From Deltaproteobacteria bacterium (GTDB lineage: Bacteria; Myxococcota; JADLHZ01), in the NCBI GenBank assembly GCA_020848545.1, contig JADLHZ010000032.1, positions 1 to 64,000 on the forward strand: a DNA stretch of 64,000 nt, written 5' to 3'. Made by a program: the position numbers and the translations under genes. Of this stretch, positions 16,142 through 18,783 are shown in pieces (positions within the stretch are counted from its first letter, which is position 1; each line of letters starts with the position of its first letter). The notes below the pieces were generated by a model. That model did not search any database and had not been told where the DNA came from. It worked only from the letters and a program-made list of their open reading frames with translations.

Positions 16142-16687
16142 CTAGAAGTTCAAGTTGTTGAGGAGGAATTTGGTGAGCAGCTCGGCGTCGGCCGATTCGG
16201 TCGCCGGCGTGGCGGTCATCTCAACCGGCTTCTCGGCCGGCGGCGCTTGCTTCGTGGACGCGGCGGCGGCCTGGCTCGCGGTGACCGGCGGCGTTGCGGC
16301 GCGCGCCGCCACCGGCGCAGCGCTCGCGGCGACCGGGGCCGGTGCGACCGCCGGCGCGACGACCGCAGCGGTCGCCACTTCGGTGTCCGCGAGCACGACG
16401 GCGATGAAGCCCTCTTGGACTTGGTACGCGGTCTCGCCGAGGATCACCGAGTCGCTCATGTGCTCGGCGCCGAGCTCGGTCAGCTTGTCGAGCGTCCGTA
16501 AGCGGCCGAGCAGCTTCTGCGTGTCTTGGCCATCGAGCAGGCTCATGAAGCGCACGGCCGACGTCAGCGTGTAGGTCTTCTTTTCGCTGACCAGCGTGAG
16601 GTGGTTGTCGTTGAAAACGACCTTCCCAGACTCGACCCATTTGTCGAGCACGTCCTGGGGGATGAAGAGCTTGTCATTCACACTCAC
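16142..16687 (-). CDS. Conserved-looking hypothetical protein upstream of dsbD
   Basis: The 181-residue protein has no signal peptide. Residues 1-100 form a compact alpha/beta-looking domain (KLFIPQDVLDKWVESGKV, then LTLVSEKKTYTLTSAVRFM). Residues 105-160 are a low-complexity Ala/Pro/Val linker, and the end is a short hydrophobic helix (LLTKFLLNNLNF), a layout suggesting a tethered interaction tail. No family was recognised. Being first in a two-gene unit with dsbD hints at a link with redox or envelope control but does not prove it. An A/T-rich TATATT element (16691-16696, minus strand) just upstream could be its -10 box. Confidence 0.6.
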   Translation of the reverse strand: MSVNDKLFIPQDVLDKWVESGKVVFNDNHLTLVSEKKTYTLTSAVRFMSLLDGQDTQKLLGRLRTLDKLTELGAEHMSDSVILGETAYQVQEGFIAVVLADTEVATAAVVAPAVAPAPVAASAAPVAARAATPPVTASQAAAASTKQAPPAEKPVEMTATPATESADAELLTKFLLNNLNF

Positions 16688-17151: not shown

Positions 17152-18783
17152 CTAGCTAAAAGTGGATCGCCGATAGGCGACGTTCAGCGTGATGCCGAGG
17201 CCGACCATGACGGTCAGCAGCGAAGATCCTCCGTAGCTGAAGAGTGGCAGCGGCACGCCGACGACCGGCAACAAGCCGATGACCATGCCCATGTTGACGA
17301 ACGCCTGCCAGAAGACGAGCGCGGTGAAGCCGGTGACGAGCAGCGCGCCGAAGCGATCGCGCGAGCGCGCCGCGATCCCGACGGCGATGACGATCAGCGT
17401 GAAGTAGAGCGTGACGAGCACGATGCCGCCGATGAAGCCGTGCTCTTCGCCCCACACGCTGAAGGCAAAGTCCGTGTGCTGCTCGGGGAGGAACGAAAGC
17501 TGTGACTGCGTGCCGGACGTGAAGCCCTTGCCCCAAAAACGCCCGGAGCCGACGGCGATCATCGATTGGTTCGCGTGATAGCCGGCGCCACGCGCGTCGG
17601 ACTCGGGATCGATGAAGGTGAGCACGCGGCGTTTTTGGTAGTCCTTGAGCAGGGCGAACCAGGCAAAGACCGAGAGCACGACGCCGCTCACCGCGAGCAA
17701 CGCGACGCTCGTCCAGCGCATGCCGACGAAGAGGATGATCGAGAACGCGATCGCGCCGACGAGCAACGCCGTGCCGAGATCCGGCTGCGCCATGATCAGG
17801 CCCATGGGCACGAGCACGAGATCGATCGGCGCGACGATTTGCCGCAGGTCCGGCCGGCCGTCTTTGACCAGCAGCCAGACCGCGTAGGCGAGGTAGACGA
17901 CGAAGAGCGCGAGCAAGAGCACGCGGAACCACAGGACGGGCAGGAAGGCCTCATGTGTGCCACCGGCCGCGCCGGCCTCTACGAGCCAAGTGAGGATCAC
18001 GCTCTTCGGATCGCCGAAGATCTCGGACTGCCAATAGACATAGGTGAGGATCGCAACGACCGCGACCGGCCCGAAGGTGAGCGCTGTCCGCAAGCGCTGC
18101 TTCCATGCGGACGGCACGTCGAAGCCCGACGCCTTCGCCGGCGGTCGCAGCTCCAGGCTGAGCGCGATCGCGGCGGCGGCGATCAAGAGCGTCACGAGCA
18201 GCACCCGAAAGCCGTAGGTGCCGTCCCATTCGGGCGGCACCCCGTTGTGCGAGAGGGCGACCTTGCGCGCGAGCTCACCGATCGGATCTTGCAGCCACGG
18301 ATTCTTGCCCCAGAGGACGATCAGCGCGGCGATGGCGGCGAGCGGTCGCGTGACGTTCAGCGGGCGCAAGAGATCGCGGATCGTGTAGCTCCGCTCGCGC
18401 GTCTCCTCGGCGAAGTAGCGCGCGAGGACGAAGATGATGGCGACCTTCATCAGCTCGGACGGCTGCAGCGTGAAGCCGGCGAGCCGGAGCCAGCGCCGCG
18501 CGCCGTAGACTTTGGTGCCGACGAGCGGCACGAGCATGAGCAAGAAGACGACGAACGCGTAGAAGGGGTACGCGATCCGCTCGAACACCCGGTAGTCGAA
18601 CGCGAGGTGCACGAGCGCCACGCCAAAGCCGAAGATGACCCAGAAGATTTGCCGGATCCAAAACGACTGGCCGAGCGAGGCGGAGTAGATGTTGGCGATG
18701 CCGATGCCGCAGATGACGAAGGTGACGAGGAGCAAGCGATAGGAGATCGCGCTCCGGGTGCCGAGGTTGCTCCACTCGGTCAT
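17152..18783 (-). CDS. rodA: Rod-shape peptidoglycan polymerase RodA with large membrane insertion
   Basis: RodA is the SEDS-family glycosyltransferase of the elongasome. The ATG at 18783 (MTEWSNLGTR) is chosen because upstream codons are antisense or Arg/Ser junk overlapping mrdA. Conserved SEDS features are present: GARRWLRLAGFTLQPSE (94-110), AQPDLGTALLVG (332-343), and the TDFAFSVWGEEHGFIGG and GVPLPLFSYGGSSL regions. At 543 residues it is about 170 longer than usual (350-400): residues about 141-318 are extra, holding around four further hydrophobic segments between the DLLRP motif and the QPDLGTAL motif. It follows mrdA by 40 bases, forming the normal mrdA-rodA pair; mreBCD are not in the window. 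Confidence 0.93.
   Translation of the reverse strand: MTEWSNLGTRSAISYRLLLVTFVICGIGIANIYSASLGQSFWIRQIFWVIFGFGVALVHLAFDYRVFERIAYPFYAFVVFLLMLVPLVGTKVYGARRWLRLAGFTLQPSELMKVAIIFVLARYFAEETRERSYTIRDLLRPLNVTRPLAAIAALIVLWGKNPWLQDPIGELARKVALSHNGVPPEWDGTYGFRVLLVTLLIAAAAIALSLELRPPAKASGFDVPSAWKQRLRTALTFGPVAVVAILTYVYWQSEIFGDPKSVILTWLVEAGAAGGTHEAFLPVLWFRVLLLALFVVYLAYAVWLLVKDGRPDLRQIVAPIDLVLVPMGLIMAQPDLGTALLVGAIAFSIILFVGMRWTSVALLAVSGVVLSVFAWFALLKDYQKRRVLTFIDPESDARGAGYHANQSMIAVGSGRFWGKGFTSGTQSQLSFLPEQHTDFAFSVWGEEHGFIGGIVLVTLYFTLIVIAVGIAARSRDRFGALLVTGFTALVFWQAFVNMGMVIGLLPVVGVPLPLFSYGGSSLLTVMVGLGITLNVAYRRSTFS

Follow-up and report, generated by a model that had tools for sequence, protein, structure and literature searches.

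The DNA analysed here (the window) is a stretch of 64,000 nucleotides from a contig of a Deltaproteobacteria bacterium placed in the Myxococcota. On its minus strand it carries a rodA gene with pbp2 directly upstream, so that the partner PBP2 is encoded alongside the polymerase. These two genes and the catalytic codon are placed as follows.

17152..18783, minus strand: rodA, 543 aa, ATG at 18781-18783, above the cut-off of TIGR02210
18824..20728, minus strand: pbp2 (mrdA), partner transpeptidase, TIGR03423 at 596.5 bits against a cut-off of 455, with PF00905 and PF03717
17470..17472, minus strand: Asp438 within HTDF, corresponding to catalytic Asp262 in E. coli RodA

The ATG at 18783 was taken as the start of rodA because it coincides with the beginning of the relatives' alignment; a longer GTG frame (606 codons) would overlap PBP2. 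Against the RodA equivalog model TIGR02210 the protein scores 414.5 bits in two stretches (cut-off 336.7), whereas against the FtsW model TIGR02614 it reaches 299.0 bits, below the cut-off of 337.5. The sequence-only reading had stated that the conserved SEDS motifs are all present, and each was located: GARRW at residue 94, QPSELMK at 107, PDLGT at 334, HTDF at 436 and SYGGSS at 516. The SEDS core and the catalytic Asp motif are as in the E. coli and Thermus thermophilus RodA structures (PDB 8tj3, 6bar and 6pl5), and both core parts of the protein align to PDB chains. In E. coli, mutation of Asp262 is reported to abolish RodA activity (excerpt of PMC10449877). SEDS matches in the genome, which comprises 7,985,837 bases in 163 contigs and is listed as 100% complete, amount to two genes, the second being on contig C98 and scoring 389.5 bits, above the FtsW cut-off (NCBIfam); the window gene is the sole RodA found in its genome. 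Judged by sequence, its product is a genuine inherited RodA with a predicted role as peptidoglycan polymerase. A small protein encoded nearby (16142-16687 of the window, minus strand) has no Pfam match; among the loci compared, its homologues lie close to rodA in 17 further genomes of the phylum, whether the insert described below is present or absent.

What sets this RodA apart is an inserted block in intracellular loop 2, between TM4 and TM5, with the following parts.

17833..18366, minus strand: inserted block as a whole, residues 140-317, within the TM4-TM5 loop
18343..18366, minus strand: RPLNVTRP motif at the block start, residues 140-147, from a motif pattern scan
18154..18345, minus strand: repeat 1, predicted transmembrane hairpin, residues ~147-210, from half-against-half comparison and charge profile
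17872..18069, minus strand: repeat 2, predicted transmembrane hairpin, residues ~239-304, from the same two analyses

The earlier description of an extra block of about 178 residues with around four hydrophobic segments holds: the block has 178 residues, from RPLN at 140 to its end at 317. In alignment with E. coli MrdB, residue 126 corresponds to 130 and residue 311 to 135, which makes the window protein about 180 residues longer here; likewise 8tj3 and 6bar, the two structures aligned at this point, have few residues between TM4 and TM5, and the window protein has about 180 more. Best 19-residue Kyte-Doolittle means of the four segments are 1.43, 2.53, 1.63 and 2.75, so that two are strong, one is moderate and the first falls under the 1.6 cut-off, as does TM4 of the core (1.09). 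The opening motif, searched as RP[LFM]Nx[ST]R[PV], occurs in 22 of 36 insert-bearing RodA proteins and in 0 of 45 insert-free ones. As a four-helix membrane unit of some 180 residues, the block might contribute a separate activity, such as handling or flipping lipids. This idea is very improbable, given that no known domain was found in the block (no Pfam match above cut-off and no NCBIfam match), that invariant polar residues are few, and that the best match of a PDB profile search with the block was a claudin at E 0.0056. Other claudin matches were worse, and the likeness was set aside as that of generic membrane helices.

The distribution of the block was determined with a profile (A1) of seven insert sequences, searched against 195 genomes of the phylum. 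Ten genomes matched, nine of them over all or nearly all of the block (1-177 in seven, 2-177 in G033 and 1-170 in G040); the tenth, G009, matched over the flank only (1-21) and was left out of the count. Seven of the nine had supplied the A1 rows, and G033 and G040 are independent of the profile. The G033 sequence (L007) has a run of unknown residues in its second half and is absent from A1; it was included in the hhalign, charge, identity and shuffle comparisons, which thus comprise eight sequences. In eight sequences the block length stays within 177-180 residues. In a wider sample of 384 genomes, whose share outside the phylum is not given, 11 matched, the same ten together with G284, from another phylum, which matches over 1-170. 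The G284 RodA (L138, L139) shares 45% identity with the closest insert RodA, and its gene lies on a 19 kb contig on which, by eye, mreB, mreC, mreD, pbp2 and rodA are consecutive; the insert there may reflect transfer, shared descent or contamination of that assembly. On contigs of named genomes, 14 stretches fit the pattern and six were confirmed, of which, by loop length, three have a window-type insert, two are of an FHA type and one has a single hairpin; the named records with matches are metagenome assemblies of Myxococcota or Deltaproteobacteria.

These results bear on the earlier reading. The block is confined to some lineages and is not unique to the window copy, with nine of 195 genomes in seven families carrying it. 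It had been said in that reading that the observation would fall if the block were a sequencing or assembly error, or if RodA throughout the phylum lacked it and this copy were inactive. Neither applies: the block recurs in separately assembled genomes and the phylum is mixed for the insert. The block also lies in frame, with no internal stop in the 543-residue ORF and a GC content within the range of the remaining gene, in the only RodA found in its genome. Nothing was found in favour of either an assembly error or an inactive second copy, and both are regarded as refuted, with a residual likelihood next to nil.

What relatives hold at the same site was established from 81 RodA proteins, one per genome, drawn from the 195 genomes and used for both loop classes and tree; omitted were truncated L015 (from G040, which is still counted among the nine insert genomes), truncated L086 (G068), the duplicate L127 and the named duplicates L128-L133. 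Loop lengths fall into discrete classes of 9-13 residues (n=45), 59-84 (n=19), 108 (n=3), 150 (n=2), 174-183 (n=4) and 185-189 (n=8). The insert is thus absent in 45 of 81. Loops of the 59-84 class that were inspected contain one hydrophobic hairpin, whereas the window type, at 185-189 residues, has two. These single-hairpin proteins, from other families of the phylum, share the insertion point of the window RodA, their hairpin is homologous to its first, and eight of the 19 have a strict RPLNxSRP-type motif. Both 150-residue loops belong to family f4 (L121 of G003 and L119 of G030) and have a second tandem hairpin of their own. In family f21 (L014, L021, L023) the 108-residue loop has one hairpin, its helices being joined by a longer soluble stretch. 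Mapped on the core tree, the loop classes cluster: 7 changes are needed, compared with an average of 32.9 for shuffled classes; the tree comes from a quick search and has a midpoint root, which does not give the direction of change. Intracellular loop 2 varies like a module slot.

How the window-type loop arose is suggested by its internal repeat. The two halves of the block match one another by hhalign with E 1.2e-11 using seven rows and 2.9e-11 using eight, whereas each half compared as a control with seven core helix pairs (14 comparisons) gave E 0.024-0.49. The first half also matches the single hairpin of eight relatives (E 7.7e-17, boosted by the shared flanking motif), family f4 (E 3e-10, likewise helped by that motif) and family f21 (E 5.9e-12, with the flank alone covered), and the second half matches the relatives' hairpins weakly (E 6.3e-4, 0.012 and 0.0035). 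A shuffle test was run on every sequence separately, with each position keeping its hydrophobicity class. Of 2000 shuffles, 31, 19, 9, 22, 7, 2, 0 and 3 reached the observed half-half score in the eight insert RodA proteins; in family f4 the numbers were 0 for L121 and 1 for L119. Most likely, then, the two halves are a tandem duplication of one type of hairpin that is common among relatives.

The number of such events was considered from the core tree. In the free quick tree the window core stands beside FHA family f3 (support 82), apart from the other insert RodA proteins, which form one group of seven (support 100), and family f4 forms a separate group (support 100). With f4 and these seven in separate groups, the simplest reading is that hairpin doubling occurred at least twice, the second hairpin of f4 apparently having been duplicated apart from the window's lineage. 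When the eight insert RodA proteins were held together, the tree was 5.03 log units better and p-AU was 0.638, with which a single origin of the eight inserts is compatible, though not proven. One origin for the two f4 double hairpins was not rejected (p-AU 0.431).

The sequence-only reading had proposed that so large an insertion could change the topology of the enzyme, and this is not what the charge profile suggests. Mean net charge over five successive segments in the eight sequences is +2.9, -0.9, +4.0, -1.9 and +1.0, an alternation of positive inner and acidic to neutral outer loops that is expected of an in-out-in-out-in path through two hairpins. Since four added crossings are an even number, the core helices should keep their sides; we infer that both hairpins cross the membrane and that core topology is unchanged. 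AlphaFold2 models from seven-row alignments have a mean pLDDT of 43.6 for the window RodA, with helices at 145-160, 190-211, 226-252 and 282-307 at this low confidence, and of 51.8 for the FHA-type RodA, with strands between two helices. The predicted secondary structure agrees with the reading from sequence, as weak evidence, and a mean pLDDT of 43.6 supports no packing model for the window protein.

The FHA-type RodA proteins, family f3, were found at these loci.

L131 3977-5584: FHA-type rodA
L132 3956-5542: FHA-type rodA
L013, L017, L019 and L020: FHA-type rodA

In L131 and L132 the insertion point, motif and flanking hydrophobic segments are as in the window RodA; unlike in the window protein, an FHA-like domain (PF00498, E 1.1e-17 to 7.9e-6) lies between the two segments. 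PF00498 scored above 20.7 bits on all four f3 inserts (44.1, 47.3, 64.7 and 26.7), and a full-length FHA-in-RodA match was obtained in four of the 195 phylum genomes, all four f3, and in the same four of the 384 genomes of the wider sample. The residues taken here to bind phosphothreonine are a Ser three positions upstream of the HA histidine and an Asn that precedes the glycine in front of the [VLI]N strand. Read by eye, each is present in 0 of 4 of these domains. Among 26 loci scanned for ordinary FHA domains in the phylum, 23 fitted a general pattern, and both residues occur in 23 of 23. The FHA-like domain would be periplasmic with both flanking segments spanning the membrane, and cytoplasmic with neither spanning it. 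In a periplasmic domain the loss of phosphothreonine binding would make sense; family f3 would then display, near the polymerase, an FHA-like domain devoid of the phosphothreonine Ser and Asn. This type is the most surprising lead of the analysis, although it lies outside the window. A tentative broader proposal, which we consider unlikely but worth stating, is that intracellular loop 2 serves as an evolutionary socket in which one or more hairpins, or an FHA-like domain, could give new membrane or periplasmic control.

In E. coli, MreC and MreD are described as tuning the contact of PBP2 with RodA (excerpt of PMC7793260), and the insert might substitute for MreD: no MreD was recognised in the window genome, and by eye no mreD-like ORF follows mreC on its contig C85. 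On that contig (L134 2216-4253) mreB and mreC lie apart from pbp2-rodA. The Pfam MreD model is insensitive in the phylum, with matches in 67 of 195 genomes at E 0.1 and 14 above cut-off; a profile was therefore built from four local MreD sequences, which misses some genomes too. With matches accepted at E up to 1, it recognised MreD in 12 of 15 genomes, among them all eight other insert genomes; three of the eight had supplied profile rows and five had not. The weakest match among the eight was G001 at E 3.0e-10, and that of G052 was weak at E 0.013. No match to the local profile was obtained in the window genome, G002 or G035. PF04093 gave weak matches in both G002 and G035, next to mreC in the former and distant from it in the latter; such matches where the local profile fails mean that the apparent absence of MreD from the window genome may be divergence. 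Against substitution, 8 of 8 further genomes of the phylum with the insert thus have MreD, and in G010, G037 and G024 mreD lies between mreC and pbp2-rodA. As a general explanation, replacement of MreD is refuted, and the version left, peculiar to the window genome, is highly improbable. An MreC was recovered from 21 of the 22 genomes in which it was sought, the exception being G025, which is 75% complete, and PF13413 (HTH_25, which occurs in RodZ and is not RodZ-specific) from 16 of 17, with the window genome included and G001 excepted.

Given these findings, the reading that we consider probable is that RodA loop 2 has become a duplicated-hairpin membrane module that docks a partner or damps cavity opening. 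The loop between TM4 and TM5 would be filled by a conserved juxtamembrane motif on the cytoplasmic side and, after it, two transmembrane hairpins in tandem, a module presumably derived by duplication of a single hairpin such as many relatives have. The available text on E. coli RodA (excerpt of PMC10449877) places the helix of PBP2 on TM8 and TM9, lipid II cavity A between TM6, 7 and 9, framed by TM5 and 6, and cavity B between TM2, 3, 4 and 10, and what appears to be the flexible bundle is TM3-7. Being tethered between TM4 and TM5, the module would sit on this mobile TM3-7 half, packing against it on the face that points away from the PBP2 helix; there it might dock an elongasome partner or damp the opening between the two lipid II cavities. 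Either function is reasonable as an inference; the recruitment of a lineage-specific partner, which the sequence-only reading had suggested, is possible.

Work on related enzymes points in both directions. Mutating intracellular loops 2 and 4 of FtsW lowers its interaction with FtsA (excerpt of PMC13327600); loop 2 of this paralogue is the corresponding loop, on the cytoskeletal side, as deduced from the ten-helix topology. Whereas FtsW loops 2 and 4 are implicated in FtsA binding, the window RodA insert is a predicted membrane module with no known partner. The same excerpt reports that E. coli RodA with Y77A or K130A, substitutions at predicted MreB contacts, still complements, its authors concluding that the C-terminal tail of RodA, and not its loops, binds MreB. 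E. coli residue 130 falls in the TM4-TM5 turn in our alignment, and is R in the PDB chain and K in that excerpt. In Corynebacterium glutamicum the DivIVA contact of RodA is also C-terminal (excerpt of PMC4285798), and in Bacillus subtilis RodA has its own stimulator, RagB (excerpt of PMC12457691). The MreB binding by the tail and the complementation by loop mutants count against loop docking in the reading preferred here, as do, for that reading as a whole, the placement of the window core next to family f3 in the unconstrained quick tree and the poor conservation of the second half, with its weak match to the relatives' hairpin. Mean identity is 28.8% for the second half, 40.7% for the first half, 50.6% for TM1-4 and 63.4% for TM5-10. 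Among the few genes examined, no partner gene was found that tracks the insert.

The main rival is near-neutral expansion, whereby hairpins insert harmlessly in pairs and duplication ratchets, with no role beyond packing. The low identity of the second half makes it a serious one, as does the finding that the site in related families ranges from empty, through one or two hairpins, to an FHA-like domain and that the 45 insert-free RodA proteins manage without any. Yet the block is retained in frame in nine genomes of seven families, its length is steady in eight sequences, and W, DP and R positions are invariant in both halves of seven aligned sequences. On balance, near-neutral expansion is held to be the lesser possibility, distinctly below that of a membrane module with a docking or damping role.

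In summary, the RodA of the window is likely an unreported loop variant of a known enzyme, its insert being a likely tandem duplication, by sequence, with a proposed role; in the open-access titles and abstracts covered (subscription papers and preprints being outside that scope), no description of such RodA inserts was found. RodA is a core cell-wall enzyme whose TM4-TM5 turn is short in the two solved structures aligned, and the variety of loop 2 in this phylum offers a set of natural experiments on how the polymerase is steered.
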